This document shows positions 24,146 through 49,063 of a stretch of DNA of 64,000 nucleotides, piece by piece. The DNA comes from a virus. The stretch covers positions 1-64,000 of IMG/VR virus record IMGVR_UViG_3300005935_005043, one strand, 5' to 3'. Each line of letters starts with the position of its first letter. Positions within the stretch are counted from its first letter, which is position 1. Below the pieces are notes generated by a model, which was not told the DNA's origin, ran no database searches, and worked only from the letters and a program-made list of their open reading frames with translations. A program made the translations under genes and the position numbers.

Positions 24146-24335
24146 AATACCCAAGGTTCTTCATAAAACCATTTATTGCTGTGGAGAATGCCCTTTTTAC
24201 GGATATGTGCATTTACCTGGATTTCATAGTATAGGTAGTTTTATTGGATGTAGGGAGCGAAATATGTTTGTAACTGATAGCCAAGCTCCTCCTAAAAAAT
24301 GTAGGCTACCTAATTTAGAAGATAATAGTGGATAA
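24126..24335 (+). CDS. Small cysteine-rich protein
   Basis: This 69-residue protein has CCGECPFY and two later cysteines (IGCRER, KKCRL), a likely metal site. It overlaps the previous gene by 20 bases and the next by eight. The purine-rich ATAGGAGGG is very close to its ATG. Function unknown. Confidence 0.55.
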   Translation: MIGQVAEIPKVLHKTIYCCGECPFYGYVHLPGFHSIGSFIGCRERNMFVTDSQAPPKKCRLPNLEDNSG

Positions 24336-30737: not shown

Positions 30738-30789
30738 GAAAAGGACGGTAAGTTAATCCCTGTTCAGGGTTTTGTGTGGAAGGGTAATA

Positions 30790-31566
30790 ATGTATGATTT
30801 TGAAAAGATTGAACCTATGGTATTTTGTTTATCAACGGGAAGGACAGGGACTTTAACTCTGGAAAGGCTTTTTAGAGATAGTCCTGAAGCCCTATGTTGG
30901 CATGAACCCTTACCTCATATATCAGTATTTCCTTTAGATAAAACAAGGTCTTTATGGGACACAAGGACGCACTTATTTTGTCAATCTATAAAAGCGAATG
31001 TAGGATATGTAGAATTAGGCGCACACCTTACATTCATAGCCTATGAAATATCTAAAGAGCTTCCACAGTCTAAGTTTTTGCACTTAATCCGTGACCCAAG
31101 GTATTTTGTAAGATCAGGGGTAAGGAGAGGATGGTATAAGGCGGGTAGGATACATGCGGGTATGTGCCCTAAAGAAGGGGATATGTTTTATAAAGAATGG
31201 CCTCTCTTAGCAGAGTATGAGAGAGTTGCATGGAATTGGAGAAAGAGAAATGAGTGGATTAGAACATTTTGCGAGACATTACCGAAAGAAAGGCATCTTA
31301 CATTTTACTCTGAAGACTTATTTGCAGGGAATAGATTAGATGTCCTTTCAAACTTCTTAGGGCTATCTCTCCCTTGTGGAGAAAATACAGGGAAGATATT
31401 ATCTTGCCCCCTTAATAGTCAGAGCGAAGGAGAGTTCCCTAAAGTTAAAGATTGGAGCATAGAGACAACGAATAGGGTGTTGAGAATAGTGGAAGATGAA
31501 TTAGTAAACTATACCAGATATGCTCACTTGTTAGTTAGTCCTATAATAGAAAAAGAGGAAAAATAA
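30790..31566 (+). CDS. Sulfotransferase-like protein, copy 1
   Basis: This 258-residue protein has the two nucleotide-binding signatures of PAPS-dependent sulfotransferases: the 5'-phosphosulfate loop CLSTGRTGTLTL with a following HEP, and the 3'-phosphate motif LIRDPRYFVRSG. It would transfer sulfate to a glycan or small molecule; the substrate is unknown. ATG 30790 follows GGAAGGG. The gene overlaps a paralog that is broken. Sulfotransferases are rare in phages, so host-derived acquisition is likely. Confidence 0.8.
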   Translation: MYDFEKIEPMVFCLSTGRTGTLTLERLFRDSPEALCWHEPLPHISVFPLDKTRSLWDTRTHLFCQSIKANVGYVELGAHLTFIAYEISKELPQSKFLHLIRDPRYFVRSGVRRGWYKAGRIHAGMCPKEGDMFYKEWPLLAEYERVAWNWRKRNEWIRTFCETLPKERHLTFYSEDLFAGNRLDVLSNFLGLSLPCGENTGKILSCPLNSQSEGEFPKVKDWSIETTNRVLRIVEDELVNYTRYAHLLVSPIIEKEEK

Positions 31567-32369
31567 TGCACCTTCTTGATGCCTTTAAAATTAATCCCTG
31601 TGTAATAGGGTTGTCTACAGGGAGATGTGGGACGATGACATTAACGGACATATTTAAAGATGCCCCTGAAGCATTTGTTTACCACGAACCTGGTCCTCAA
31701 ATGGATGGTGGACTGAATACATTTTATGGTCTTGGGGATATACCCCATAATATTGATAATTGGCTAAAGTCAAGGGAAGCCTTATTGGTTAAATCTATTT
31801 TAGCTAAAAAGGGATATGTTGAACTTGGAGGCAGGAATGCGTTTAGGTGTTATGAAGCGAACGCCTGTCTTCCTCACTGTAAGTTCCTACACATAGTAAG
31901 AGACCCAAGAGCTTTTATTCGTTCTTGCATGAGAAGAAAATGGTATACCCCTTATGTTGGGGATAGGAGAGAAGGCTATAATATGTCTATGTTTCCAAAT
32001 AGAGATGACCCTGATATTGAGCTATGGCCTAAGTGAGGGCCATTCGAGAAAGTATGTTGGTATTGGAAGAATAGAAATAGGTTTATCCGTGAGTTCTGTA
32101 ATAGGGTAGGGACAGAGAGAAGTTTATTGTTTTATGCAGAACATATATTTGCGGGAGAGTGTTTATCCAGTCTAGCAACATTCTTAGGGTTAACGCTACC
32201 TAGCGGAGAGAAGATAAGGGCTGTTCTTAGTGACAATTATAATAGGCAGAAGGAAGGTGAATTTCCTAAGCCTGAAGATTGGCCTAAGGATATGGTAGAT
32301 ACCGCAAATAATATCATAGGGGATGAGTTAGATCATTACCCTCTTTATTGGGCAATTAACGATAGGTAG
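31566..32369 (+). pseudogene. Sulfotransferase-like protein, copy 2, interrupted by in-frame TGA
   Basis: The frame begins with GLSTGRCGTMTL and HIVRDPRAFIRS, paralogous to copy 1, then stops at TGA 32034-32036 after ELWPK. The same frame continues without a break (FEKVCWYWKNRNRFIREFC ... EHIFAG) to a TAG at 32369, aligning residue for residue with copy 1 (YERVAWNWRKRNEWIRTFC). A single base change, such as TTA to TGA, explains it. The upstream 156 residues lack the C-terminal half, so activity is doubtful. Confidence 0.8.
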
Positions 32370-32542: not shown

Positions 32543-34786
32543 ATGCCAGTTTTCGGTTCTGGGGCAGTTCGTATTCCTGAAGCAGCCAAGTGGCATCTAT
32601 TATTTTGGCTATTAAGCGATTTATACACAGGGGCAAAAGGACCCGCTATGAGGGAGAAACTGGAGCGTATTATAGATCGCGTTCAAAGGCGCTATAATAC
32701 AAGGAAAGTCTCCATTGATGGTGACTTAAAGAAAGTTTCTATCCTTGGTGAAAGCCCTATAACTGCTTTGCATGAGTTGATGGGTGTATTTAATAGACAT
32801 AAACTCTCTAAGCAGCAGATACAGTGTGTATTCAGCCAATTAAATAAGCCGGAAGAGAAGGTTAATCTTGTAAAAGACTTAATTGGCGTAGATACTGATG
32901 AAGATAGAATGATATTAAAATGTGTTGCAACCGTAGCAGGGGCTAAAGGGAAGGTAGAAGAGTATGCTAGTGGTAAAATAGGGGTTTTTGCTAGTAAACA
33001 GGGAAAGAGATTAATTGACTATATTGCTCGTAAGAGTCCTAAGAAGGCAGCGGAATTGGCGCGGACTCTAAAGGATGCGAAAACTATCGGTAGGACGACA
33101 AGAGATGTTGCAAGACGCCATAAATATACAACAGGGGCAATAGCGGGTGTTGCCGGAACATTGGCTGTTCAAGCGGGTAGACGTAAAAGACGGCGTAATG
33201 AATACGAGGAAGAGTATGCTGGAGGTAAACTGGGGGTCTTTGCTGGGGAACAAGGGAAGAGATTAATTGAGTATATTGCCCGTAAGAGTCCCAAGAAAGC
33301 AGCCGCTCTTGCACGTACGCTAAAGGACGTAAAAACTGCCGGTAAAGCAACTAAGCGCGTTATTAGACAGCATAAGTATACATCTGGGGCTGTAGGTGGG
33401 GTTGCTGGAACATTAGCGTTGCAAGCTCATGCCCGTAGAAATAAAAGGAATTATGAGTATGAAGAAGATGATGGACTTTCTGTGGTTAAAGCTTCTCTTG
33501 GCCGTATAGCAACAAGATTAGGGCGAAGAGGAAAAGCCATACGTTCATATAAATCAACCAAGTTGGCTAGAGCGGCGAAACAAGCTGAGTGGATGAGAAG
33601 GGGGAATGCCCTTGAAACCCAGAGATGGGCAGGAAGGGTTGTTGACGTAAAGAGGAAGGAAAAGGCCGCTCGTAGGCGGCTTATTGCTTCTGGAGCGGCT
33701 GCTGGTGTAGGAGCTTTAGCGTTAAGGCGTAAGAAAAAGAAACCTCGTGAAGAGTATGAATTGGCTAGTAGGTTACGCAGAATTCTTCCCTATTTACGTG
33801 GGATAAGTCGTAAAAAGAAGTTAGCTGCATTAGCTGTTAGCGGTATTGGAGGGGCAGGGATTGGTACTGCTGCCTCAAGGCGCAGGAAAGATGAGCCTTT
33901 AGACTTAGATTACTTACATTATTATTATCCTGGTATTTATGATGATGAGTTGGGAGGGATATATGAGAACGAAGAATATGCGGGTGGCAATAAAGTATTT
34001 ACAGGCACGCGAATAGGGTCCTCTGGGAAGACTGTTCATGTTGTTCGTGGGACACCCAATGCTGGTCGTGCAGGGAGAGTGGCATCCGCTAAAGCTGCTT
34101 ATGCACAAAGAAGGACGACGACCCCTCAAGCTCCTCCAAAGGCAATGAGCCCCGCAAGGATGGCAAGAAGGACAAGATTGTCTTCGAGAAAACTTAGCAC
34201 ACAAAGCGTTTCTCCTGGCTTTGGGCATACGAGGGCGCGGGGAGCTAGGGGAACGCCTGTACGGCGACGTGGGGGCTCTTCTACGGGGACTGGAGCTAGA
34301 AGTGGGGTGCGCGTTTATAAGCCTGGGTTGACTCGTCCAATGGGAAGAGGGGGATTTAGGCGTTATACAGGAGAATTAGACAACCTAAAGAAAAGGATGG
34401 ATGGCATATTAAAGAAAGTGAATAATATTGATGAAACCTCAATTAGAAAACAACAGCCCGATTCTACGTGGAGTCCTGGAGAAGGAAAGGAAGGGACGCC
34501 TATTCAAGAGGTTAGTCCTGCTAAATTAAAATGTTCTCAGTGTGGTTTTGTTGTTGACCTAGATAAGTCAAGGTTAAATGAGGTGGTTAGTTTAAGGTGT
34601 AGTCGATGTGGCGCTTTTGGGTCAATGAAATTAATTGGAATGGGAGAACAGGAAACACCGCCTACGACTGAAGGTTTACCTCCTGTAGGTGGAGAAGCTC
34701 AGAAAAATTCTGTTAATGTAGAAAATGAAGGAGGGATGGCTAAGTTGGTTGGATTTATGGGCGTAAAGAAGTTTGGGGAGGATTAA
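32543..34786 (+). CDS. Large modular protein with tandem glycine-zipper/basic/EYE repeats and zinc ribbon
   Basis: This 747-residue protein starts after TTAGGAGG. An N-terminal helical domain (1-140) is followed by two 84-residue tandem repeats (141-224 and 225-about 305). Each has GKRLI-YIARKSPKKAA, a glycine-rich hydrophobic stretch (TGAIAGVAGTLAVQAG), a run of Arg/Lys and an EYEEEYA-type acidic patch. Two more hydrophobic-basic units follow (SGAAAGVGALALRRKKKK; VSGIGGAGIGTAASRRRK). A Ser/Thr/Pro-rich linker and a C-terminal zinc ribbon (LKCSQCGF, then RCSRCGAF) complete it. No enzyme is visible. Its location before portal suggests an internal or ejected head protein (inference). Confidence 0.7.
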   Translation: MPVFGSGAVRIPEAAKWHLLFWLLSDLYTGAKGPAMREKLERIIDRVQRRYNTRKVSIDGDLKKVSILGESPITALHELMGVFNRHKLSKQQIQCVFSQLNKPEEKVNLVKDLIGVDTDEDRMILKCVATVAGAKGKVEEYASGKIGVFASKQGKRLIDYIARKSPKKAAELARTLKDAKTIGRTTRDVARRHKYTTGAIAGVAGTLAVQAGRRKRRRNEYEEEYAGGKLGVFAGEQGKRLIEYIARKSPKKAAALARTLKDVKTAGKATKRVIRQHKYTSGAVGGVAGTLALQAHARRNKRNYEYEEDDGLSVVKASLGRIATRLGRRGKAIRSYKSTKLARAAKQAEWMRRGNALETQRWAGRVVDVKRKEKAARRRLIASGAAAGVGALALRRKKKKPREEYELASRLRRILPYLRGISRKKKLAALAVSGIGGAGIGTAASRRRKDEPLDLDYLHYYYPGIYDDELGGIYENEEYAGGNKVFTGTRIGSSGKTVHVVRGTPNAGRAGRVASAKAAYAQRRTTTPQAPPKAMSPARMARRTRLSSRKLSTQSVSPGFGHTRARGARGTPVRRRGGSSTGTGARSGVRVYKPGLTRPMGRGGFRRYTGELDNLKKRMDGILKKVNNIDETSIRKQQPDSTWSPGEGKEGTPIQEVSPAKLKCSQCGFVVDLDKSRLNEVVSLRCSRCGAFGSMKLIGMGEQETPPTTEGLPPVGGEAQKNSVNVENEGGMAKLVGFMGVKKFGED
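32963..33460 (+). repeat. Tandem 84-residue protein repeats
   Basis: Two adjacent copies begin at 32963 (YASGKIGVFASKQGKRLIDY) and 33215 (YAGGKLGVFAGEQGKRLIEY). They stay aligned through the glycine-rich segment, the basic run and the acidic EYE patch. Confidence 0.85.
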
Positions 34787-34788
34787 TA

Positions 34789-37236
34789 ATGCCCTGGACA
34801 ACAGAACAGATGCGTCAAAAGGGGGCTAAAGATAATCCAGCTCAAGCTGCGAAAATAGCAAATGCAATTCTTCGTGATACAGGAGATGAAGCAAAAGCTA
34901 TTCGCATAGCCTTATGGAAGACGAATAAGAAGTCTAAGAATAAACTTAAAAAAGTATCCACTTATGGCCCTATACAGACATCGACTATGCACGAAGGGTT
35001 TAGGAGAGATGTTTTATTAGAGAAACTTCCTTCATCTTTACGTGTATTATTAGTTGGATATTTTGTAGGCAGGGTTGGATTGAAGAGGGTATTGAGCGGA
35101 ATAAGGAAGTCATGGAATATTCTTCCTATGCCGGTTAAAACGGCATTAATGGCTGCGCTTGGTGTATATTATGTAGCCAATAAATCTAAGAAGGAGTTCT
35201 CTAAAAGAGTTAATAAAGAGCGTGAATTTAAGAAAGCTGCATTGTCTTTAGGTAAATTTACTAAACTACAAAAAGAGGGTCAAAGAGGTCGTTCAGGATG
35301 GAGGTCTGATGATCCTCTTAATCCTCATACAAAGGGCTCTCAAGGAGGAAAGAAGGGGTCTCGTAAGAAAGGGGAGAAGCCCCTTCCAAGCCAGCGCAGG
35401 GAGTATGGAGAGCGCACAGGCTATGGAATACGCAGGGTTCCAAAGGGGACATTGTCTACACTTGGATATATGGCTGAGAGGGCATATTTAGCGGGGATTG
35501 AAGGCTTTGGAGGTGGAGGGGTTAAAGAAGTAAGAAGAGAGTATAAGCGAGTCCGTGAATTAAATCAGAGAAGGCGTAGAGAGGAGATAGAGCGGAAAAG
35601 CAGGACCCAGAGAGAAAAATATGTTGACGATGATTTAACGGGAACATTAGGATTCGTTGTACGGGGGGTAAAGCTTTTTGGAAATAAGCCTGTTACCCCT
35701 GAAGATAGAGAGAAATGGATTTCACAAAAGAAAGGTTTCTCAAAAGAGTTTGATCGAAGAAGGAAGCAACTTGGAAGAGACGTTAAACAGGTTGTGGCAT
35801 CCGGTCTTGAGGGGGCTGGTACAGGAGCTACCGTAGGAATTATATGGGGGGCTATGAAGGGGTTACAAGATAAGGTGCGTAGACATCCTATATTAAACCC
35901 TCTTAATATTGGAGTAGATAGAAGGATTTTAGAGAGTGAGATAAAAAACTATAGAGCAATGAGAAGGGGGAATGAATTAAGTCGTCTTGAAGATATTAAA
36001 CAAGAAAGAAAGAGTGAACAAGGAAGGGAGAAAAAGCGTAGGAGAAGGGGGCAACAGCCTCGTGATATGGAAGCAATGGAGGCTATGTGGAATTCTCAAG
36101 AAAAGAGGTTGACAAGAAACTTTATGGAGGCTGGGACTAAAGGGAAGGTAAATAAGCCTAAGTGGTATCAAAGAAGATTTGGTAAAATAAGTAAATCTTC
36201 TACATATATTGGGACTATATGCGATGTAAATGAGTTGATAAATAAGTTAGCCTCTAGCCCTGTTGGGCAAAATATTAATAAGGCTATTTCTTCTCATCCA
36301 GTAAGTGATTTAATGTTGACAAGGGAGGACTTAGGGCATAATTTAAAGCCATATAGGTATAAGCGTAAAAAGAAGCGAGTTAAAAGCGAATATGAATATA
36401 ATGACGGATATGGCAACGAAGATGATGCTGATTATAGTAATTTTAGGAGAGATACATTAAGGGTTATACGAAACCTTGCTCAAAAGAAACCATCTGACCT
36501 TGCAAGGGGGGCCTTAAAGGTCTCTGGCAACAATATAGATATGGCATTTATGTATTTATATGAAAGAATCGGTAAACTTGATTCTGCTAAGAAGTTATTT
36601 GTTCGTACTATTAAAAATAAATCTTTTGAAAACAAAAGTGAAGAAGGGCAAACAAGATATGCTATAACATTGGCCAATGAATTGCAGGGGAAGTATATAC
36701 GAGCTATGAAAATAATAAGGGCAGTTGGGGATAAAAGAAGAGAAGAGTACGAAGAAGCAGGCGATCATATTCTTACAAGGCAGCAAATGGGAGGGCGGCT
36801 ACCCAAGATGCCTTATGATAGGCGGAGAAGGCGTATATTGAGGCATCGTAAACCAGAAGTGATAGAGGAAGAAAGGCGCAACAGGACAGAGGAATATGAA
36901 TATGAAGATGACGATTTTAGTGAGATTAGGAGAAGCACCTTAAGGTCCATAAGAAGACTTGTCCAAAAGAAACCATCTGAATTTGTAAGGGCAGCCTTAC
37001 GCGAGAGTGAACACGACGAAGATGGTGCATGGATGTCTTTATATCAAAGAATGAGTCAGCTTGAGGCCATTAAAAAGGAGTTTATTGTTGACCTTAAAGC
37101 TAAATCATTTAGGGATAAAAGAGAAAAAGGGCAAATAATGTATGCTTTAGCTTCTATCAATGAATTACAGCAAAAATATCTGAAGGCTATAAAGCTACTA
37201 AGGAAGATTGGAAGAAAAAGACGTGACAATAATTAA
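34789..37236 (+). CDS. Large basic modular protein with C-terminal tandem repeats
   Basis: The N-terminal 45 residues of this 815-residue protein (AAKIANAILRDTGDEAKAIR) match a short helical module common in phage proteins. Hydrophobic glycine helices follow (KTALMAALGVYYVANKSKKE at about 110; GAGTGATVGIIWGAM at about 345), each before basic stretches. Long Arg/Lys-rich disordered parts lie between them. Two C-terminal repeats (about 534-657 and 702-815) start with EYEYNDGYG or EYEYEDDDF and continue TLR-IR-L-QKKPS. It lies between the 747-residue protein and portal and shares their plan. Function unknown; likely a virion component. Confidence 0.7.
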   Translation: MPWTTEQMRQKGAKDNPAQAAKIANAILRDTGDEAKAIRIALWKTNKKSKNKLKKVSTYGPIQTSTMHEGFRRDVLLEKLPSSLRVLLVGYFVGRVGLKRVLSGIRKSWNILPMPVKTALMAALGVYYVANKSKKEFSKRVNKEREFKKAALSLGKFTKLQKEGQRGRSGWRSDDPLNPHTKGSQGGKKGSRKKGEKPLPSQRREYGERTGYGIRRVPKGTLSTLGYMAERAYLAGIEGFGGGGVKEVRREYKRVRELNQRRRREEIERKSRTQREKYVDDDLTGTLGFVVRGVKLFGNKPVTPEDREKWISQKKGFSKEFDRRRKQLGRDVKQVVASGLEGAGTGATVGIIWGAMKGLQDKVRRHPILNPLNIGVDRRILESEIKNYRAMRRGNELSRLEDIKQERKSEQGREKKRRRRGQQPRDMEAMEAMWNSQEKRLTRNFMEAGTKGKVNKPKWYQRRFGKISKSSTYIGTICDVNELINKLASSPVGQNINKAISSHPVSDLMLTREDLGHNLKPYRYKRKKKRVKSEYEYNDGYGNEDDADYSNFRRDTLRVIRNLAQKKPSDLARGALKVSGNNIDMAFMYLYERIGKLDSAKKLFVRTIKNKSFENKSEEGQTRYAITLANELQGKYIRAMKIIRAVGDKRREEYEEAGDHILTRQQMGGRLPKMPYDRRRRRILRHRKPEVIEEERRNRTEEYEYEDDDFSEIRRSTLRSIRRLVQKKPSEFVRAALRESEHDEDGAWMSLYQRMSQLEAIKKEFIVDLKAKSFRDKREKGQIMYALASINELQQKYLKAIKLLRKIGRKRRDNN
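36388..37233 (+). repeat. Two C-terminal protein repeats of about 115-125 residues
   Basis: The copies start at about 36388 and 36892. They share an acidic EYEY lead, the LRxIRxLxQKKPSxxxRxAL helix, a Y-x-R-x-x-x-L-x-x-x-K-K segment, K-S-F-x-x-K-x-E-x-G-Q, and NELQxKYxxAxKxxR. Confidence 0.8.
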
Positions 37237-37258: not shown

Positions 37259-39658
37259 ATGGCTAACATTTTAACAAGAGTTAAGAGCGGTATCCAGAAA
37301 GCGTCTATGGTGCGCGTGGGGAGGACTGTCCCCGCCCCTAGAAAGGGGGGCGACCTTCTTTCTTCGATAATGGACTCTGTAGCTTCCGCTGGGAGGGATA
37401 TGGGGCAAGGAAAGCGCGAAAGACCTAAAATTCTTGACTTTAAAACGATTGAAACATTAGCTCATTCTGACCCTCTTGTTTTTGCGATTATGCAAAGCCG
37501 GAGAGATCAGATAAAGTTATCAGAATGGGATGTCGTTCCAGATGTAGATGAAATACTTTCTGAATTAGATGAGTGGAAAGAAGTCTCCCTTATCCAATTA
37601 AAGCCCTTTGCTTCCGACCTTATTACTCCAAGATTTTTTAGATTGTCCAAAGAAATATTTGAAATAGGACAAACCCAAATTAATAGAGTCCTTAGGGATA
37701 AGACTCCTACCGTAGATAAAAAGACGAATATTAACATATTATTCGATGTCCTTGAGAGAAGGGTTAAGGATGAGGCAGTTAATATTTCCATCCCCATACG
37801 TGATCTTTTAAAGAAACCAAGCGATGACTATACTGGACTGAAACCCCTTCTTTTAAGGGTGGTGGATGACATTTTATTATATGATGCAGGGGTTATTGTA
37901 AAGAATAACAATTCTGCCGGAAATAAGTTGGCTGAGATATATGATATTCCTGGGGAAGAATTGGTTGTTTGTAGAAATGCCGATAGGTCGATCCCTAAAC
38001 CTCCTGATACCGCTTTTGTGTGGAATAACAAGCAAGAGGATATTGCTGAGTTTACGAGAGATGAGATTGTTTATTTTGTAAACAATATGCAGCCACATTT
38101 TTACGGGTTTGCTCCGATTGAGGTTATGGCATATGTCATAACGACAAGTCTGTATGCAGATCAGTATAATATTGAGTTCTTCAAGAATTCAAACATCCCT
38201 CCCATGATTATTAATTTAGGGAAAGACGTAAGGCCCGAAAATAGAGTCGCTTTTCAGAGATTTTGGAATCAAGAGATAGGGCGCAGGGGAGCTATTCATC
38301 GAGTTATGTTTGTGAGTGGGACAGAAAAGATGGATAGCATTCCCCTTACGATGGGGACGAATAAAGATATGCAAATGTATGAATATCTTAAATGGTCTAC
38401 ATCTATTAAATGTGCTTGCTTTCAATTATCTCCTCAGGATGTTGGGTTTACTCAAGACCTTCATAGGACAACCGCAGAAGTCCAATATAAGATTACAAAA
38501 GATAGGGGATTGCGCTCTATTTTGACTTTGTTTGAAGATGGCCTAAATGATGGCATTGTAAAGCCGATGGACAAAGCCGGAATGGTAAAATTCAAATGGC
38601 TTGGGTTAGACACAGTAGACAATTCACTCCAGACAGATATTGATAATGCAGACATAAATAATGGGGTTATATCAAGAAACCAGAGACGTAGAAGGCTGGG
38701 GTTAAGGCCCATAAGGGGAGGGGATGTTATCTTGGTCCCTGGCCCTCAAGGGAATATGATCCCCATTGAAAGCCTTGAAGACTATAAAGAACAGATGGAA
38801 ATTACAGGAGATATTGAGGAAAGTCAAACGACAGAAGAACAAGCGGGGCCGGAAGAGAAGCCTGATAAGAATAATAAATCTGTTCGCTCTTCCGCTAGGG
38901 AGGTTGCTGGGACGAGTTCTCCAAAGAGGTCTGCTCCATCCTCTTCTCGCAAGCAACCTCCCTCTAATAAAAAAGAAAAAGGTAATAATAAGAAAGAAGG
39001 TAAGAAAACAAAAGTAACAAGTGAAAAGAAGATAAAGAAAGTATTAGACGATGTTAGGAGAGAAAGTGGAGGGGATAGCCTTGTAAAGATTAGTTATATC
39101 AAGAAACAAGACCCCTATTTTACTGATTATAACTATCCAGCAAGACCCATGATGGGAGGCCCTTTAAGGCCAATGAGATATCCTTATTCCCAAAGAGGAC
39201 TTGGGCCTTTAGACGAAGAAGAGAAGCCCGTACAGGCGGCTATACGCAGAAGCGTTGTAAGGGGGATTGCTGAAGGAGTTACCGAAGGGAAAGACAAGGA
39301 AGAGTTTGACCCAACAGCACAAGAACTTGAGAGAGTAATAGAAAGTGCTGGGGCAGGAGAAAGTAATTGGCTTACAAGGGCTATTATAGGTATTGTTGGG
39401 GTACTCGGGATTCCTGTCGCATCAAAATATGGCGTTAGGATGGGAAGAAAAGGGGTTGCTAGAATTGCACATCTAACCCTTAAGGCATTATTACGTAAGT
39501 ATCCATCCGTTAGAAGGGTGATTGCCGGGAAACCTGTGCGCAAGAAAAATCTGATTTCAGCAATATTAATGTCGTTAGCGGGTAAGCATCACTATCTTGG
39601 AAAATATACTACTGCCTATGAAATAAGAAAAATAGAGGAAGAGTTAGAGAATGGGTAA
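37259..39658 (+). CDS. Portal protein with long C-terminal extension
   Basis: Residues 1-530 of this 799-residue protein form the portal core. They include the early SDPLVFAIMQSRRDQI, a clip/stem part with HFYGFAPIEVMAYVI, and QLSPQDVGF, all typical of portals of large siphophages and myophages. Portal forms the DNA entry ring and docks terminase. The extra 270 residues contain a Lys/Ser-rich linker, a hydrophobic glycine helix (AIIGIVGVLGIPVASKYG) followed by basic residues, and a helical tail. The hydrophobic-basic unit matches neighbouring modular proteins. Cleavage of this extension during maturation is possible (inference). The 3' end overlaps the next gene by eight bases. Confidence 0.9.
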   Translation: MANILTRVKSGIQKASMVRVGRTVPAPRKGGDLLSSIMDSVASAGRDMGQGKRERPKILDFKTIETLAHSDPLVFAIMQSRRDQIKLSEWDVVPDVDEILSELDEWKEVSLIQLKPFASDLITPRFFRLSKEIFEIGQTQINRVLRDKTPTVDKKTNINILFDVLERRVKDEAVNISIPIRDLLKKPSDDYTGLKPLLLRVVDDILLYDAGVIVKNNNSAGNKLAEIYDIPGEELVVCRNADRSIPKPPDTAFVWNNKQEDIAEFTRDEIVYFVNNMQPHFYGFAPIEVMAYVITTSLYADQYNIEFFKNSNIPPMIINLGKDVRPENRVAFQRFWNQEIGRRGAIHRVMFVSGTEKMDSIPLTMGTNKDMQMYEYLKWSTSIKCACFQLSPQDVGFTQDLHRTTAEVQYKITKDRGLRSILTLFEDGLNDGIVKPMDKAGMVKFKWLGLDTVDNSLQTDIDNADINNGVISRNQRRRRLGLRPIRGGDVILVPGPQGNMIPIESLEDYKEQMEITGDIEESQTTEEQAGPEEKPDKNNKSVRSSAREVAGTSSPKRSAPSSSRKQPPSNKKEKGNNKKEGKKTKVTSEKKIKKVLDDVRRESGGDSLVKISYIKKQDPYFTDYNYPARPMMGGPLRPMRYPYSQRGLGPLDEEEKPVQAAIRRSVVRGIAEGVTEGKDKEEFDPTAQELERVIESAGAGESNWLTRAIIGIVGVLGIPVASKYGVRMGRKGVARIAHLTLKALLRKYPSVRRVIAGKPVRKKNLISAILMSLAGKHHYLGKYTTAYEIRKIEEELENG

Positions 39659-42600
39659 GAGAATAAAATTAGAGCTATCTCAACCCGAGAAAATATCCCC
39701 CTCTATTATGAAGTTTATAGGGGCGGATGCTATTACTACCCCCGATCTTTATCCTAATATAGTAGCAATGGAAATGCCTTTAGTTAATTTTTTACATTTG
39801 GTAAAATTGGCTAAGGGGGCTAAACCTAAAGACATTGCTTCCGGTCCTTATTTAATCGTTAATAGGGACAATATTATATTTACTGGGAATAAGTCAAAGC
39901 AGGAAGCTTATCAAGACTATATCAGAGCGGTAGATATTATATCTCAAAGGGCAGATGAAGATTTGCCTCGTGGTATGATAAAGCGAACTGCAATGATAGT
40001 CGCTAAATATAATCTTCCGGCATTTCTAATTAGTCGTTTCGGTATAAAGAGGAAATGCTATGCGCACGCTTCTTACTTAGTAGATGAGAATAAGTTCAGC
40101 GTTGTCCCTGAATACTTTATTCGCTTTGGCGTTATAAATATGTTGGGGCAGTTTGTAGGAGAGTTTGAGAAAACTGTCTTACATGAATTTGGGCATACGA
40201 TATGGTACCAGTTGCTTGACGATGAAATGAAAAGAGAGTGGGAGAGGATAGCGCCTGCGTTCCTCGATACGGACGCTGTGTTGGCGTCTGAGCGGAAGGA
40301 AGACTACTACCGGTCCACCAGTGCTAATCTGGCCGGAGAAGCTATTGAGAGCGATTTCTACACAAATAGAACGGCTCCCTTTGTTAGTGATTATGCAAGG
40401 TTTAACATACGAGATGACTTTGCAGAGAGCTTTGCATTTTATAAGATAGCGCCTGTGCAGTTTAATAAGAAGTTCCCTCGAAGATATAAGTTCTTTCAAG
40501 TGATTGAAAAAGATATAATGCCAAAGAAGGGAGATGTATTTAAGAAGTCCAATAAAGAGGTTATAAATGTTGATACTGGAGAGGAATATAAAGTAACTCC
40601 ATTTGTGGATGTCCTTTTGCAACATAATAAACATCGGAGGCAGTTAGCAAGCAAATTAGAGAGAGACATTCGTTTATTCGTGAGAGAGCAAGGGCTTGGA
40701 ATAAACTCTATAAAGACAATTGTTATATATGATGATTATTCAAAGAGTGCTAATGGGTTGCCTGAGCTTATTAAGTCAATAATATGGTTGCCTGGATTAA
40801 ATGAAAAGAAAAAAGATAGATGGAGCTACAGTTCTCATTTTACTATTTTTAGGGATAAAGAAGATTTTGAGAAAGAAGTATTCAGGGCTCTTGATTTGGG
40901 GACATTCCTTAGCCCTAAAGCACTTGTAGTTGAGAAAGCTGGAGAGTCTACGAAGTCTGAACTTTATGGGATGTTGCCCGCTGTGAAGGTAGGGAGGCAA
41001 GTATATTCCGGGGATTCTACCGATATGCACTACCACATTATAAGAGATTATGGTTTATATGGGAGGCTTTTTTATGCAAAAGGTTTACGGGCGATAGAAG
41101 GGTTTATCTTAAGGACAGGCCGTTTTATTACAAGACCTCAGGCAGAGAAAATGGATAGAGATTTTGTTTTACGGGATGATAAAGAAAGATTTAATGCGTA
41201 TTTTGATTTCCCTCCAGGTGAAGGGTTTGGGAAATTTTCTAAAGCCAAGACAAGGTTGACAAGAAAAGACCTTATGGGGATGAGACCTGCTGTTAAGATG
41301 GGAAGGAAGATATATACCGGTGGGCCGCTTGACCTTCATCACGATATTGCAGTAAGATATGGCTTGAGAGACCCTTCATGGCGGGGGTTTGTATTGCCTA
41401 CGGGAAGATTTATTACTTACCGTGAGGCTAAAAAGGCTGATGCGGATTACCTAATGGAAGATGAGGTTAAGCGCGTTGTCGCTTGGAGTGAAAAACACAA
41501 ATTTTCTAAGTCAAGAAAGAAGATTACAGAAAAAGACCTAATAGGTATGAGGCCAGCTATTAAAGTTGGAAGGAAGATATACCTTGGAGGCCAATATGAT
41601 TTTCATATAGATATTTGCATAAAATATGGACTATTAAGGGGGGTTAAGAAGGAATATGGGTATGTATTACTTACGGGAAGATTTGTTTCAGCAAAAGATG
41701 CCAGAGGGATTGATGAAGAATATGTTGATGAGGACGAATTAAGAAGGGTAAGAATTTCTAGGAGATGGGGTAAATTATCCAAGCGTAAGAAACCTGAAAA
41801 AGATATTAAGTTTAAGAAACCTAAAGAAGTAGCTTATGTTTCAGGGAAATATCGTTTTGGTATGGATCAGTATCATTCATTCCGTATAAAGTTTGGAAAA
41901 CAGTGGTATGACATTGTGACCAAAGAAGGATTTCCGAATAAGGGGGCAACGAAGGCATTATTTGTAAAATCGAATCCTCCTAAATCTGGGAAGGTGAATG
42001 TGGGGGGAAGAAAAGGGCAGTATACGAGGACGAAATTAGGGCTTGCAGAAGTAGAACGATGGGGATGGAGAAAAATATTTAGGGTATTAGGAGGGGCCTA
42101 CAAGGGAAGGTATATTGCTGCCGGGAAACAATTGAGGCGCATAGAAGAGCCCGCTTTTACCGCTAAATATCTTCCGATAAGACCTAAGGGCATTCCTACG
42201 AAGAGGATGATTGCGGATAAACGCTATGAAATGATCCCTGAATCGGGAGGGCAACATGTTTATATTTATACGACGCCTACTCAAAATCGTATTATCTCTT
42301 ATAAAAAGAATAAGAAAACAGGGAAGTACATAGATAAGACTAATTATCTTAGTGCCGTAAGAGATTATTCATTACCCGTTGGGAATGTTATTGAAGCTCA
42401 GGTTTTCTCAAGAGATGCTAATACAACGAGAAAGGTGTTTGGAACCAACCTTGTTAGAAGCAGGGTAGCCCAGAGAGAGTTAGGGATGCCAAAGGTAATG
42501 GCTACTGACATCATTCAGTATGCCGGGAGAGATGTTCGCTCTCTTCCCTATCAGACCAGAAAAGCTTTATTGAAGAAAGTAGTCCCGGATTATAAGTATT

Positions 42601-42746
42601 TATTTAAAGCTCCAAGTTGGAGAGCGGATAAGGTTAGAAAATTAAAAGAACTTAAGAAAATTGGTTGGAATAGAGTTGTTTTTAAAGATCGCTTAAGGCC
42701 GTTATCCAGAAGAGATGTTTCGTATTGGGACTTTAGCGAAAAGTGA
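39651..42746 (+). CDS. Zincin with three H/GRF repeats and a ligase-like C-terminal region
   Basis: This 1031-residue protein has a zincin motif LHEFGH (H178, E179, H182) with a likely third ligand in DDFAESFAF (E259). Three tandem modules begin near residues 441, 544 and 633 (for example PAVKMGRKIYTGG, LHHDIAVRYG, GFVLPTGRFIT). Residues 850-990 resemble the adenylation domain of ATP-dependent DNA ligases (HVYIYT, NVIEAQVFSRD, TDIIQYAGRDVRSLPY then TRKALLKK), but the catalytic K-x-D-G is not seen, so it would be inactive. It overlaps the portal stop. The zincin is well supported; the ligase-like reading is tentative. It may process virion or host proteins. Confidence 0.75.
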   Translation: MGKRIKLELSQPEKISPSIMKFIGADAITTPDLYPNIVAMEMPLVNFLHLVKLAKGAKPKDIASGPYLIVNRDNIIFTGNKSKQEAYQDYIRAVDIISQRADEDLPRGMIKRTAMIVAKYNLPAFLISRFGIKRKCYAHASYLVDENKFSVVPEYFIRFGVINMLGQFVGEFEKTVLHEFGHTIWYQLLDDEMKREWERIAPAFLDTDAVLASERKEDYYRSTSANLAGEAIESDFYTNRTAPFVSDYARFNIRDDFAESFAFYKIAPVQFNKKFPRRYKFFQVIEKDIMPKKGDVFKKSNKEVINVDTGEEYKVTPFVDVLLQHNKHRRQLASKLERDIRLFVREQGLGINSIKTIVIYDDYSKSANGLPELIKSIIWLPGLNEKKKDRWSYSSHFTIFRDKEDFEKEVFRALDLGTFLSPKALVVEKAGESTKSELYGMLPAVKVGRQVYSGDSTDMHYHIIRDYGLYGRLFYAKGLRAIEGFILRTGRFITRPQAEKMDRDFVLRDDKERFNAYFDFPPGEGFGKFSKAKTRLTRKDLMGMRPAVKMGRKIYTGGPLDLHHDIAVRYGLRDPSWRGFVLPTGRFITYREAKKADADYLMEDEVKRVVAWSEKHKFSKSRKKITEKDLIGMRPAIKVGRKIYLGGQYDFHIDICIKYGLLRGVKKEYGYVLLTGRFVSAKDARGIDEEYVDEDELRRVRISRRWGKLSKRKKPEKDIKFKKPKEVAYVSGKYRFGMDQYHSFRIKFGKQWYDIVTKEGFPNKGATKALFVKSNPPKSGKVNVGGRKGQYTRTKLGLAEVERWGWRKIFRVLGGAYKGRYIAAGKQLRRIEEPAFTAKYLPIRPKGIPTKRMIADKRYEMIPESGGQHVYIYTTPTQNRIISYKKNKKTGKYIDKTNYLSAVRDYSLPVGNVIEAQVFSRDANTTRKVFGTNLVRSRVAQRELGMPKVMATDIIQYAGRDVRSLPYQTRKALLKKVVPDYKYLFKAPSWRADKVRKLKELKKIGWNRVVFKDRLRPLSRRDVSYWDFSEK

Positions 42747-43101: not shown

Positions 43102-44832
43102 ATGGAAGTTATTAAGAGCTATAGAGCCCCAGCAGGCGCAGGACAAGAATTCAAACAATTTGTTCCAATTACAAAAGTAGATGATGAAAAGCATATGGTT
43201 TTCGGGGTAGCCACTGCTGATGGTCTTGATGAACAAGATGAGGTTGTTGAATGGGAAGCGACTAAGGAAGCGGTTCCTGAGTTTAAGAAGTGGCGCAACC
43301 TTAGAGAAATGCACCAGAATAAAGCTGTTGGCACAATCCCAGAACTTCAAATTAATGATACTGAGAGGTCATTAGAAATTGGAGCCCACGTTGTTGATGG
43401 TGAAGCATGGAATAAGGTTAAAGAGGGGGTTTATAAAGGATTTAGTATTGGAGGGAAGGCCCTCGATAAAGTGAAGGAATATAGCAATAAGTTTAATAAG
43501 ACAATTAGTCGTGTAACTAAATATCTTTTAAATGAAATTTCTCTTGTAGATCGTCCTGCACATCCGAAATGTGTTTTTACAATGATGAAGCGTGGTAATG
43601 ATGATCTTATTACGCAAGATATTTTACAGCATGAGATTGTGCAGAAATCTAAAGTTCTTACTAGTCTATTGGCGAAAGTAATGTCTGATGAGGCTATTGC
43701 AGAGCTACCTAATAACAAATTTGCACTTGTTAAGAGGTATAAGAGGGATGACGGAATACACGAGGAGTGTATTTTACCTATTCCAGATAAAGTTCATGCA
43801 ATGAGCGCGCTACAGTTCTTAGGGAAAATGGGTCTTACCGAGTCTGAACAGAAAAAAGCTCATGGGCGAATTATAAAAGTCCTGGGTGCTAGTCACGATC
43901 CGTTGAATTGTTCGTATTGTGTTAAACAAAGAGTTAGAAGTACTGGCTTAAGTAAGGAGGAGTTGATGAAACGTAATGATGTAGCTCGGGCAAAGAAGAT
44001 TTTACAGCAAATTGCTTCAAGCGAAGAGAGTGAAGCTTCTGTGCCCAATGAAGATTATGTGATTGAAGACGAGCCTCTGGCTGAGGCGACTGAACATGAG
44101 CCTGACACAACTGAAGAGGATACTCGATTTGTTCAGGAAAGCGAGGAAGGGGATAGTGACGAAGGGCTCTTCGATGATGTTGATGATCTAACGGGTGAAG
44201 CTGATGACAGTCTGCTTGACCGTTATGATGTTGACGATGCGAGAAGCGACGAAGAGTATGAAGATGATGGGGTGAACAGGCTTTTAGATGCCCTTGAGGA
44301 GGAACTGGAGGGCGAGGAGTCCTCAACTGTTGGGAAATCTTGTGCTTATTGTGGAACTACCTTGAAACTTCTTCATTCTGGGCAGTTTCAGAAAAATGAG
44401 GCAACCTGTCCTGGATGTGGTCAGTTGTACAAGCTGAAGACAGGGCAGTATAGCGAAGTAAGTTCTCCGGCGTCGCTGAGGAAAAAAGGTAATGCTAATT
44501 CTATGATGATTAGAAAGTTTGGCGATATTCTTGAGGTCCAAACTGGTTTAGCTGATGCTGTTGCCGCTTTGTCGGAGAAAATTGATGCTATTGAAGGGGC
44601 TCCTGGTCCTCGTAAGGGGGCTGAGGATACAAGGCAGAAAAGACCTATGAATAAGAGTAGCATTGATGGGTCTGAGGACGATGTTAATAAGTCTCAAACT
44701 CCCTCTCCGGCAGAGATTCAAAAGGCAGTTGGTATTAGGCAAAAGATTAATGCAGGAGAAGCCGTTCCTGTTGCGGACAGAACATTTGCAGAAGATGTCT
44801 TAGACAGGAAAATTAAGGCTAAGGTTACGTAA
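43102..44832 (+). CDS. Prohead protease (XkdF-like) fused to an acidic scaffold-like region and zinc ribbon
   Basis: Residues 1-170 of this 576-residue protein match phage prohead serine proteases of the XkdF/S78 type: LREMHQNKAVG with catalytic H71, YKGFSIGGK with S115, and LLNEISLVDRPAHP. Residues 300-410 are highly acidic and disordered, with an EEYEDDG patch. A zinc ribbon follows (CAYCGTTL from C414, later CPGCGQLY), then a helical C-terminus. Protease and scaffold in one chain would let the scaffold be delivered and removed during capsid maturation. It sits directly before the major capsid gene. Confidence 0.85.
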   Translation: MEVIKSYRAPAGAGQEFKQFVPITKVDDEKHMVFGVATADGLDEQDEVVEWEATKEAVPEFKKWRNLREMHQNKAVGTIPELQINDTERSLEIGAHVVDGEAWNKVKEGVYKGFSIGGKALDKVKEYSNKFNKTISRVTKYLLNEISLVDRPAHPKCVFTMMKRGNDDLITQDILQHEIVQKSKVLTSLLAKVMSDEAIAELPNNKFALVKRYKRDDGIHEECILPIPDKVHAMSALQFLGKMGLTESEQKKAHGRIIKVLGASHDPLNCSYCVKQRVRSTGLSKEELMKRNDVARAKKILQQIASSEESEASVPNEDYVIEDEPLAEATEHEPDTTEEDTRFVQESEEGDSDEGLFDDVDDLTGEADDSLLDRYDVDDARSDEEYEDDGVNRLLDALEEELEGEESSTVGKSCAYCGTTLKLLHSGQFQKNEATCPGCGQLYKLKTGQYSEVSSPASLRKKGNANSMMIRKFGDILEVQTGLADAVAALSEKIDAIEGAPGPRKGAEDTRQKRPMNKSSIDGSEDDVNKSQTPSPAEIQKAVGIRQKINAGEAVPVADRTFAEDVLDRKIKAKVT

Positions 44833-44965
44833 TATATTGATCTGAGAAAGATTAATATTACATTGCGAATATAATGCGGAATATCGGGATTCGGTTATAT
44901 TCTTCCAGGGGCGTAGAAACCCCGTGCGTTCTTTGACAACTTTATTGACAGTAAGGAGGTATGTT
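44833..44965 (+). promoter_or_regulatory. 133-base leader of the major capsid gene
   Basis: This is one of the few real gaps. It holds a TATAAT at 44870-44875 with no good -35 box, a small GGGG/CCCC hairpin near 44918-44932, and two TTGACA copies (44933, 44945). A strong AAGGAGG at 44953 precedes the ATG. A capsid promoter or stabilising leader is likely, but its exact elements cannot be fixed by eye. Confidence 0.35.
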
Positions 44966-45991
44966 ATGAATACTGGTAGTCCTCTTTCAGTTGGGATGAC
45001 TGATCCCCTGGAAGTGCAGAAGGTCGTTAGTGATTTGCAGAAGGCGATATCGTCCACTGCTGTTACCGGCCTAATGTTGGTAAGAGAAGACCTTCAGGAC
45101 GAAATGGCTCTTGCACTGCCTACCGATACTCCGATTAGAAATCGTTTACGTCGATTTCCGGGTAACGGTGATGCGCACGCTTGGTATCAGCTAACCGCCA
45201 CGGTTCACGCCGAAGGTAGGTTTGCTGGGACTGGGCCTCATGCAGGCTTTTTCGCGGCTGGAGGCTTACCTACGGCTGTCCAGGCTAGTTACAGGTATAT
45301 GAGTGCTCCCTACGTTTCACTCGGTGATATTGCGCAAGTTACGTTTTTCGCTCAGATGGCGGGTAAGAGTTATGCAGATAATAAGGCTCGCCAGGTGAAG
45401 ATGAAAATGCTCAATGTTGGCCTAATGGAGGAGTGGGCGATCATCAATGGGAATAGCACTTATGATACTGGCTTGGAGTTTGATGGTTTTAATCGTCTTA
45501 TTACTACTAATACGACGGACATGGCAAACGCACCGATTACCTTAAGTGCTGTGTCAACGACGGCTCGGTTAGTTGCGAATCTTGGTGGGAAACCGCAGTT
45601 TCTTGCGTTTTCTTTTCGTGATAAGCAAAACTTTTCTGAGTTAGTGTTGACGGGCTATTATAGGCTCTTTCAACAGCAAGGGGGTGGGTTGGCTGATGTT
45701 CCGTCTGGTATTTCTGTGAACCGCTGGATTTGCGATTTTGGGATCATTGATATTATTGGAAGCAGGTTTATATATCCGGCAACCGGGTATACTTCTAATA
45801 ATGCGTATCTTATTGACGATGCAACGATTACGGATGACGGTAATGCCGTAGCGATGGTTGATTTGATGCCGGTGTCTTCAATTGATCTTGCAATCGTTAA
45901 TACCAGCTATCGGACTCTGGTTGCAGAGTTCTCAGTTTTAATGATGACCGTTGAAGTCTTTCAGGCTAAGATCATCAATATTGGAGCGTAA
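44966..45991 (+). CDS. Major capsid protein
   Basis: This 341-residue protein shows features of HK97-fold capsid proteins of large phages. The N-terminal arm (LMLVREDLQDEMALALPTD) is followed by TPIRNRLRRFPG, then AHAWYQLTA, a glycine-rich E-loop-like segment (RFAGTGPHAGFFAAGG) and NVGLMEEWAIINGN. It forms the head shell. The ATG at 44966 has the best ribosome-binding site in the region (GTAAGGAGGT); an upstream in-frame start would run through that site. Position after protease and before a terminator supports high expression. Confidence 0.9.
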   Translation: MNTGSPLSVGMTDPLEVQKVVSDLQKAISSTAVTGLMLVREDLQDEMALALPTDTPIRNRLRRFPGNGDAHAWYQLTATVHAEGRFAGTGPHAGFFAAGGLPTAVQASYRYMSAPYVSLGDIAQVTFFAQMAGKSYADNKARQVKMKMLNVGLMEEWAIINGNSTYDTGLEFDGFNRLITTNTTDMANAPITLSAVSTTARLVANLGGKPQFLAFSFRDKQNFSELVLTGYYRLFQQQGGGLADVPSGISVNRWICDFGIIDIIGSRFIYPATGYTSNNAYLIDDATITDDGNAVAMVDLMPVSSIDLAIVNTSYRTLVAEFSVLMMTVEVFQAKIINIGA

Positions 45992-46089: not shown

Positions 46090-47106
46090 ATGAAAATATA
46101 TTCACTCTGGGAAAATGGGGTTACGATTATTCGTGGTAAGAGTTTTGAGTTTACCAATCATATATGCTATGTACCAGACGAATATATTTTTGATTTCTTG
46201 GTTGGTGGCCAGTATACATTCCTATTAAAAAATCCAAAACCATTAATAGAAGCTAAAAGAGGTCTTTTTATACGAGATATAGGACTTGGAGATATTCTTC
46301 TTTGCACCCCTCTTCTTAGAGAAGTAAAGAAAATAAATCCTGCCATTAAATTAGATTTTATGGTTCGTGATAGGTATAAAGAGTTATTTAATGGAAATCC
46401 TCTTGTCAATAAAGTAATTGCGATGAAAGACATTTCTACCGATTTATTAAATGAATATCAGTGGTTTATTAAATTAAATCAAATAGAGTTTGTTGTCGGG
46501 AAACATGAAAGCGAACATCGAGTAGATATTTTTGCAAGTTGTATCCCTGAAATAAAGTTGCCGATTAAAGATAAGTCTCTTATATACAACGTAGCAGAAG
46601 AAGAAAAGGAGTGGGTAAGAGGATACATTAAGACCCGTAGAAGTGTTGTTGGCGTGGTGTTGAGAACAACTTGTGACAACAGAAACTTAAAATATTCTGT
46701 TATTAGCGACATTGTTAAGGCTCTTTGTAAAAAAGGTATATTATGTTTGTTGATAGATCATCAACAACAGCAATCTATGTCTCCTGTAGATGGTTGCCTG
46801 GACTTAACTGGAAAATTAACAGTGCGTCAGTTGGGCGCTGTGATAGATAGGTGCGACGTATTATTTACTCCTGATACCGGGACTTTTCATTTAGCGTCCG
46901 CAATTCCTGGAGTAAAAATAGTTAGTTATTTTGGGGCTATCGATTCTTTATTAAGAATTACTGCCCCTGAGAGGACTAAAGTTATTTATAAAGAAATTGA
47001 ATGTTACCCGTGTAATTCTTATTCATGTAAAAACCCAAGATGTATATGGGAGATTCCAGCAGAGACATACGTTAATTCAATCTTAGGTAGCTTAAAGGAG
47101 AAATAA
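46090..47106 (+). CDS. Glycosyltransferase family 9 (heptosyltransferase-like)
   Basis: This 338-residue protein has the GT9 layout: an N-terminal IRDIGLGDILLCTPLLREV loop and a C-terminal nucleotide-sugar site, LFTPDTGTFHLASAIPGVK then FGAIDSL. A cysteine-containing CYPCNSYSC follows, as in many heptosyltransferases. GT9 enzymes add heptose or related sugars to LPS or proteins. It starts the glycan block after the capsid terminator. The target may be the host surface or virion proteins; sequence does not decide. Confidence 0.85.
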   Translation: MKIYSLWENGVTIIRGKSFEFTNHICYVPDEYIFDFLVGGQYTFLLKNPKPLIEAKRGLFIRDIGLGDILLCTPLLREVKKINPAIKLDFMVRDRYKELFNGNPLVNKVIAMKDISTDLLNEYQWFIKLNQIEFVVGKHESEHRVDIFASCIPEIKLPIKDKSLIYNVAEEEKEWVRGYIKTRRSVVGVVLRTTCDNRNLKYSVISDIVKALCKKGILCLLIDHQQQQSMSPVDGCLDLTGKLTVRQLGAVIDRCDVLFTPDTGTFHLASAIPGVKIVSYFGAIDSLLRITAPERTKVIYKEIECYPCNSYSCKNPRCIWEIPAETYVNSILGSLKEK

Positions 47107-47468
47107 TGCCCCCTGTGAAATCTGGACTTTGTGAGTCTCACAGTGAATTAGCGAGAGAAGTAACGGCAGTTTCTACATCACTGACATTTGTTCTTGGGAG
47201 GATACAAGAGGTAACAGAACGATTTTCAAATGATGTTGGCAGCATAGCTGATAAGATGGGCGTTATCGAAAGAAATTTTGCTAGAGAGATGGAGAAGAGA
47301 GACGAGGCGCATGTAGCAACTATGGAGAGGCTATCTACCCTTGAGGTAAATAATTCCGTTAGTAGGGTAAAGCTTGCATTTATTGGGGCAATTGGAGGAT
47401 TGACTGCAAGCGGAATTGTTACCATTGTTGTTTTTATTTTTATTAAATCAATACTTAATGGGGCATAG
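47106..47468 (+). CDS. Coiled-coil protein with C-terminal membrane helix (XhlA/holin-like)
   Basis: In this 120-residue protein, residues 15-85 form a charged coiled coil (FSNDVGSIADKMGVIERNF, then REMEKRDEAHVATMERLSTL). A single C-terminal membrane helix follows (LAFIGAIGGLTASGIVTIVV). This is the plan of XhlA-type holin-associated proteins. It overlaps the GT9 stop (TAATG). No endolysin is visible nearby, so a lysis role is inferred only from architecture. Confidence 0.6.
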   Translation: MPPVKSGLCESHSELAREVTAVSTSLTFVLGRIQEVTERFSNDVGSIADKMGVIERNFAREMEKRDEAHVATMERLSTLEVNNSVSRVKLAFIGAIGGLTASGIVTIVVFIFIKSILNGA

Positions 47469-47470
47469 AA

Positions 47471-49063
47471 GTGAGAATTCGGGCACGCTCGGGACAGCGG
47501 AGCATTTTCCTTAACGGTAAATTTTATTCTATGGATGATCGCACTTTTATCACAGTAGATGATGAGGTGGGGGCTAAACTTCTATCTATTAATCCAGACA
47601 TATGTTTACATCGAGATAATTTACCAAAGGGAGTAGTGGCTCCTATATTGACGACAAAAGATTCTCCTATCTTTGTGGTTATTCCCACAAGAGGGAGAGC
47701 AGATCATTTAAGAAAAACCCTTAAAGAGGTTATAAGTCAAAATCCTGATGGAATTATTGTTATCAATGATGGAGCGCAAGATAATACGGATAGCGTTGTG
47801 GCCCTTCATGGGGATAAGGTTAGACTTATTAAGAACCCTGGCAGGCTTGGGATAAATGCCTCTCGTGGAGCGGGGAATGGATGTGTCCCAGACAATGGGA
47901 TTGTTGTTGAGCTTGATGACCATGATTTACTTTTACCAAATGCTTTAAATGCTATAAGAGAAGCGTTTTTTGATCCTTTTATTAACCTTGTATATGGGGA
48001 TTGTGAATTTTATGGAAAAGAAACTGGTAATTTTATTAAACCAGATTATATAAGTTGGCAATTGAGGGATGATACGTGTTATGCTACCGGAGTAAGGGCG
48101 TATAGAAAATTTGTATATAATGTTGCTGGAGGGTATCGAGTTGGAAGGATTGAGGAGCCCGCCGGAGATTATAATTTATTCCTTCGGATTGAGGCTTTAT
48201 CCGGGGGTGTTGGGATTAAGAGAATTCCTAAGAAACTTTCCATAGTAATGAAATCTGGTGATGGTGTGAATGTTGGATTACAAGACATTAACGCTGAGAA
48301 ATTTAGGGGATTAGCTAGAAGCGGAAAACTATTGGGCGTTTCTGAATTGCATGGTAAAAAATCTCCTATAAGTCTTACTATCGTGGTTGTTACCCATAAT
48401 TATGGGATGTATTTACCGAGAGCCCTTTCCAGTATTTTTTCACAGACGATGCTTCCTTCAAGAGTTATTGTTGTTGATGATTCTTCAGACAAAAAGGACA
48501 GCGCAAGAAATGTTGCAGCGATGTATCCTACTGAGTATATAAAGACTAACTTTAGGAATGGCAACAAAGCAAGAAATGTTGGGGCAAGGCGTTGTACCGA
48601 AGATGCCATATTATTCTTAGACGCTGATGATTGGTTGTTGCCCACATTCATAGAGACCTTTATGGATAGTATGAAAAAGACAGGTGTTGACGTAGTTTAT
48701 TCAAAATGGCATTCATTTAAGGACTCTAACGGTTCTTTTAAACTTATAGAAAACCATTATGATGGTGCCCACCCAAACCATCCTCGTGATGGCCAGCTTC
48801 TAAGGCACATGAATTATATTGCAATGCCAAGTTTGATTAGAATGTCTAAATTCCCTGGATTTGATAATGATATTTTAGTTGGGCAAGACTGGGATTTGTG
48901 GTGGGCAATGATGAGAAATGGGTGCAGTTTTGAGTTTATTCCAGAAGAAATGTTCTGTGTGTTTATTCACGAGAATTCTGTTTCACAGCAATCCGATCAT
49001 CTTAAAAAATTAGAAATAGTCAGGCAGAAAAACATTGCTTTAGATTTGAAAGGAAAAAAGTAA
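47471..49063 (+). CDS. Tandem-domain family 2 glycosyltransferase
   Basis: This 530-residue protein has two GT-A domains. Domain 1 (about 60-290) shows FVVIPTRGRADHL, IVINDGAQD and VELDDHD. Domain 2 (about 298-520) shows LTIVVVTHNYGMYL, VIVVDDSS and ILFLDADDWLL. Both DxD-type motifs are present, so both may be active. Residues 1-55 form a small extra N-terminal domain. It starts at GTG shortly after the holin-like gene and ends overlapping the next GT2 start. It likely builds or decorates a glycan. Confidence 0.85.
   Translation: MRIRARSGQRSIFLNGKFYSMDDRTFITVDDEVGAKLLSINPDICLHRDNLPKGVVAPILTTKDSPIFVVIPTRGRADHLRKTLKEVISQNPDGIIVINDGAQDNTDSVVALHGDKVRLIKNPGRLGINASRGAGNGCVPDNGIVVELDDHDLLLPNALNAIREAFFDPFINLVYGDCEFYGKETGNFIKPDYISWQLRDDTCYATGVRAYRKFVYNVAGGYRVGRIEEPAGDYNLFLRIEALSGGVGIKRIPKKLSIVMKSGDGVNVGLQDINAEKFRGLARSGKLLGVSELHGKKSPISLTIVVVTHNYGMYLPRALSSIFSQTMLPSRVIVVDDSSDKKDSARNVAAMYPTEYIKTNFRNGNKARNVGARRCTEDAILFLDADDWLLPTFIETFMDSMKKTGVDVVYSKWHSFKDSNGSFKLIENHYDGAHPNHPRDGQLLRHMNYIAMPSLIRMSKFPGFDNDILVGQDWDLWWAMMRNGCSFEFIPEEMFCVFIHENSVSQQSDHLKKLEIVRQKNIALDLKGKK

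Follow-up and report, generated by a model that had tools for sequence, protein, structure and literature searches.

Tandem Arn.3-like modules joined to a zincin domain in candidate polyvalent-type proteins of a tailed phage

LPD domains are frequent, but not obligatory, components of the polyvalent proteins of phages, and MuF polymorphic toxins are products of a portal-adjacent gene with a possible effector domain. According to the main text of Iyer et al. 2017 (PMC5512222), genes for phage polyvalent proteins lie near virion genes, and zincins, their commonest domain, probably process the polypeptide; these zincins are likened there to lethal-factor- and PPEP-type proteases. Here, we compare with these systems three proteins of one virus, P0001, P0002 and P0003, that share a repeated module. 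The window, i.e. the whole stretch of DNA analyzed, comprises 64,000 nt and is part of the 68.7-kb virus record IMGVR_UViG_3300005935_005043. The virus is a tailed phage with profile-matched genes for a portal, a head protease and a major head protein, and the same virus is present in three other IMG/VR contigs with an identity of at least 99.99% across the 21-23 kb compared. IMG/VR searches with P0001, P0002 or a single unit of the module returned only near-identical contigs of this virus, and the named-phage searches with the same queries gave nothing convincing.

P0001 (39651-42746, plus strand; 1031 aa, pI 9.9) is encoded among the late and virion genes, between the portal gene (37259-39658, plus strand; Pfam Phage_portal E 2e-30, phrog_12 E 2e-46) and the gene of a head maturation protease-like protein (43102-44832, plus strand; phrog_9427 E 6e-23), with the major head protein gene downstream (44924-45991, plus strand; phrog_752 E 1.6e-11). 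Because the P0001 start codon falls within the final 8 bases of the portal gene, where the two genes overlap, they are probably translated together. P0002 (24328-26628, plus strand; 766 aa, pI 10.3) is encoded between an intein-bearing gene and the portal gene. The former (19133-22072) specifies a 979-aa late-region protein with an intein (Pfam Intein_splicing E 4.5e-22) and an HNH match, and is probably the terminase large subunit, judging by its position and look. Elsewhere in the window, two adjacent paralogous genes (30772-31566 and 31566-32036) share 45% identity over 126 aa, and the genes that follow the major head protein (46090-49063), still among the virion genes, include glycosyltransferase matches at 47471-49063.

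Several unrelated domains are combined in each of the two large chains. P0001 consists of an N-terminal zincin, a middle part without assignment, three tandem modules and a basic C-terminal region, whereas P0002 combines a weakly supported WYL-like N-terminus (Pfam WYL E 0.012, below cut-off) with two modules and a C-terminal zincin-like domain. A single module is found in P0003 (28127-28951, plus strand; 274 aa), which has no HExxH. As an independent test of these units, each was scored by an HMM of the others (unit 6 was never in the training set) against the remaining window ORFs and 500 of its own shuffles. The leave-one-out E-values were 3e-16, 4e-21 and 4e-22 for units 1 (40968-41168), 2 (41277-41453) and 3 (41544-41726) of P0001, 3e-5 and 6e-10 for units 4 (24721-24969) and 5 (25528-25719) of P0002, and 1e-5 for unit 6 of P0003 (28292-28519), all on the plus strand. 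In bit scores, the six true units reached 20-74 bits, compared to at most 11 bits for the best shuffle or other window ORF. A six-unit HMM, built from these same units, matches exactly six places in the record. The preliminary description had counted three units in 39651-42746, two in 24328-26628 and one at 28127-28951 and had taken them for one family; both statements hold, as all six are recovered by leave-one-out HMMs (E 4e-22 to 3e-5). Besides the zincin, no second domain of known activity was found in P0001. NCBIfam gave no informative match to the window proteins, Pfam no match to a polyvalent (LPD) domain in them, and Pfam and PHROGs no match to a MuF domain in the window.

Judged by its sequence, the module is a divergent, Arn.3-like relative of phrog_839, a phage family of stand-alone proteins with Arn.3 as its type member. 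We refer to the units as relatives, not as members, of phrog_839 because its profile misses them (no match to the whole record at E 10). This identification puts a name to the stand-alone GxxH..GF..G.F phage proteins to which the units had first been likened. The lead query was a consensus styled on such stand-alone proteins, which scores as phrog_839; it found 122 phage records, including arn.3 of Acj61 and Arn.3 of 201phi2-1, the latter annotated as similar to T4 Arn.3. A pattern scan of IMG/VR that required GF[VIL]TxxGRF..R.EA yielded 107 stretches, from which 80 ORFs were examined (49 of at most 130 aa, 17 of more than 400 aa). The corresponding scan of genome contigs gave four stretches, of which a single one is a convincing module, in a short ORF (up to 115 codons) on a Candidatus Nomurabacteria MAG contig (L155), possibly phage-derived. 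A literature search on Arn.3 found nothing relevant.

An HMM that contained no window units recovered all three units of P0001 (full E 8.7e-13; 42.8 bits) and P0002, mainly via unit 5 (E 2.4e-5; 18.9 bits), compared to 7.2 bits for the best of 1000 shuffles. At the level of single units, the outside-family domain E-values were 1.6e-5 for unit 1 and 9e-4 for unit 5, while those of unit 4, which carries a long insert ahead of the conserved H, were weak (0.65 and 4.2 with two such HMMs), and unit 6 was not found (E 1.4). Most of this signal lies in GF..TGRF, and detection by the outside-family HMM is lost once the GF..GRF motif is masked in the window proteins. Together with the missing PHROG profile match, and with the absence from all window units of the C-terminal SEDL[YW] motif of the stand-alone members, the masking result would fit a reading in which the units are not homologous to Arn.3-like proteins and the common motif reflects convergence or selection by the search pattern. 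We consider this very unlikely, given that A, I/V-Y-x-G, H, GF, GRF and A agree in order and spacing between the window units and the Arn.3-like proteins, that the upstream A and H are invariant in 37 of the 37 rows of alignment A4 (four of which are window units) although the scan pattern did not select for them, and that hhalign of the window units against thirteen members from named phages gave a probability of 93-94% (P about 1e-7). The window units thus share with the Arn.3-type stand-alone proteins the order A, x-x-G, H, GF..G.F, A, and differ from them in extra residues between G and H, in the frequent loss of R-x-E-A after GRF and in the missing SEDL[YW], which is likewise absent from modules embedded in larger proteins of other phages such as L036. 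Plain tblastn with the embedded module of another such locus, L087, retrieves stand-alone Arn.3 proteins, and the embedded and solo forms therefore belong to one family.

An AlphaFold2 model of unit 2, for which alignment A4 served as input, reached a pLDDT of 91.6 and has a beta-beta-alpha-beta-beta-alpha arrangement. In a viral structure library, it matches Arn.3-like and large phage proteins with probabilities near 1 and E-values above 0.04, a result that is not fully independent because the model was built with A4, which includes rows of the family. Among PDB structures, no solved structure resembles the fold, and the PDB sequence search was likewise without a match. Of the units whose structure prediction the preliminary description had proposed, unit 2 is the one with a confidently predicted fold.

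We next turn to the zincins. The core in P0001 spans residues 172-281 (40164-40493, plus strand), with HEFGH at 178-182 and E259 as the candidate third ligand, and the zincin-like segment of P0002 spans residues 656-700 (26293-26427, plus strand), with HENAH at 670-674. Both match an HMM of seven other phage zincins from which the window rows were left out (E 4e-11 and E 9e-7, respectively), in line with the original proposal of two zincin-like HExxH domains; E179 and E671, the residues named there for alteration, are the Glu of these two motifs. The P0001 domain also matches Pfam Peptidase_Mx1 (E 2.4e-4, below the curated cut-off). A scan for the pattern HExxHxIW identified nine further contigs, seven of whose proteins align with P0001 and P0002 and carry, in addition to HExxHxIW, a later Glu at the position of P0001 E259. 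With HExxHxIW masked, the downstream half of the P0001 domain (241-280, including E259) remains weakly significant (E 0.003), which supports E259 as the third ligand. The P0002 match is no longer significant with HExxH masked, so that its zincin support is confined to the motif; the segment has no clear second motif, and hhalign relates it to the P0001 zincin with P 1.7e-4 and a probability of 49%. The AlphaFold2 model of the P0001 zincin was poor (pLDDT 52, with only the two motif helices at about 80), and Foldseek searches with it were uninformative.

The aligned zincin family shows weak profile similarity to lethal-factor- and PPEP-type chains. P0001 resembles the ATLF/PPEP-like zincins (Peptidase_Mx type) in combining HExxH with a Glu further along the chain, within a motif resembling [ED]FAE; the window zincins differ in that their profile matches are weak and below curated cut-offs and in that P0002 lacks a clear second motif. 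Phage zincins with the HExxHxIW helix recur in unrelated environmental phages (L143-L152), some of them beside SbcC and clamp-loader genes, and in one of the nine zincin contigs (L146) the zincin chain also matches an Alt-like ADP-ribosyltransferase. An ADP-ribosyltransferase-like domain suspected by eye in the middle of P0002 was supported neither by Pfam nor by comparison with this Alt-like protein.

The preliminary description had presented tandem modules joined to HExxH domains as a combination not known from the literature. In other viral contigs, the module is embedded in 17 ORFs of more than 400 aa (400 to over 3500 aa), for example within chains of 2294 and 3583 aa (L035 and L036), and two such proteins speak against a lack of precedent: in L062 (at least 2531 aa), the module lies near residue 496 and precedes an HExxH segment at 1060 with an acidic SEEFFAH behind it, and L111 has HExxH at 388, a downstream acidic motif and the module near 1213. 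These two zincins were assigned by eye, and the zincin HMM found no zincin at the module loci, L062 and L111 included. Zincin-containing polyvalent proteins are, moreover, a class described in the main text of PMC5512222. The module proteins of L087 and L106 carry Pfam LPD22, a polyvalent-protein domain, and head or tail genes lie near the module in three of five checked loci (L068, L087 and L102; L055 and L104 had no match). Tandem modules are rare elsewhere, with a second convincing match in L073 only, and three tandem modules behind an N-terminal zincin were seen in this virus only, in searches of limited sensitivity.

These occurrences bear on what the module does for the protease. The presence of zincin and modules in one polypeptide in both P0001 and P0002, and the weak profile resemblance between the zincin family and proteases of the lethal-factor and PPEP types, would suit an injected effector that cuts a host protein and uses the modules for substrate recognition, close to the view of the preliminary description. 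This reading appears distinctly unlikely to us, since most module ORFs were found without an HExxH zincin in the same chain and P0003 has a module without HExxH. It is possible that the module recognizes a partner for the protease; protease targeting as its general job is unlikely because the module mostly occurs without a zincin.

The main rival to an injected protein is a structural role in the head. P0001 sits between portal and head protease, the usual MuF/gp7 slot, and its zincin weakly matches the C-terminus of the head morphogenesis profile phrog_241 (E 0.13), as would be expected if P0001 were a head-assembly protein, with a zincin that serves as a structural or maturation protease, with modules that fasten it to the portal, the capsid or DNA, and with no action on the host. 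A separate head maturation protease is, however, encoded at 43102, P0002 has the same parts and is not beside the portal, and the module is elsewhere mostly a small stand-alone protein, whose gene has non-structural neighbors in those named phages that were inspected (e.g., arn.3 of Acj61), leaving a purely structural role rather unlikely in our assessment. With pI values of 9.9-10.5, P0001, P0002 and P0003 are among the most basic products of the 56 phage genes, a property that suits proteins packed with DNA and is only consistent with packaging.

Other very basic proteins are encoded upstream of the portal (22903-23604, 32543-34786 and 34789-37236); they have repeated acidic EYEYEDD-type stretches and internal repeats, and may be internal proteins of the head that carry signals for processing or targeting. 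A 24-residue stretch of the last one (residues 492-515) is 58% identical (E 0.017) to residues 34-57, towards the N-terminus, of the major head protein at 44924-45991, and is possibly a capsid-targeting or cleavage segment common to both.

Starting from what was observed, namely which domains are present and in how many copies, where the genes lie, the basic charge and the precedents elsewhere, we propose that P0001 and P0002 are polyvalent-type proteins that are injected and whose zincin releases or directs Arn.3-like units, a reading that we regard as evenly balanced. Both proteins would be made with the late genes, and P0001, made beside the portal, would be packed in the head with the DNA and then injected. 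Its zincin may cut its own chain or proteins packaged with it, either ahead of injection or immediately afterwards. Such cleavage would free or expose the small Arn.3-like domain in several copies; this domain is probably non-catalytic and could bind a host target or a nucleic acid at an early stage of infection, and its repetition in tandem is, we infer, more typical of a binding part than of an enzyme. The injected, polyvalent-type reading is supported by the confirmed units and zincins, the portal and head neighbors, the basic pI, and the modules embedded elsewhere, two of them with LPD22 and two with HExxH. Against it stand the lack of a second domain of known activity in P0001 and of an LPD match in the window proteins, as well as the poor model of the P0001 zincin fold. 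A broader extension, in which the Arn.3-type domain is an early-takeover or counter-defense module delivered both solo in the cell and pre-packaged in multiple copies that a zincin separates after injection, is put forward tentatively and seems somewhat improbable. Linking the widespread Arn.3 type, which occurs in T4-like, jumbo and many environmental phages, to polyvalent proteins, for which injection is assumed, leads to the prediction that the family acts as infection begins. The module is small (about 65-80 aa), its fold is predicted with high confidence and it has no detectable relative among solved structures, so structure determination and binding-partner tests should be easy.

Compared to known systems, P0001 resembles the MuF toxins in being encoded by a portal-adjacent gene with a possible effector domain, and differs from them in having no detected MuF domain. 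With polyvalent proteins as described in the main text of PMC5512222, the window proteins share a large multidomain architecture, a location near virion genes, a zincin peptidase and domains in common with solo phage proteins. P0001 differs from polyvalent proteins in that one module follows its N-terminal zincin three times in tandem, and in the absence of an LPD domain; LPD22, a polyvalent domain, occurs beside the module in other phages and not in the window proteins, and an Arn.3-like domain is not named in that main text. The class itself is thus known; the novelty lies in an array of tandem modules that follows an N-terminal zincin, together with Arn.3-like domains as recurrent parts of polyvalent proteins.
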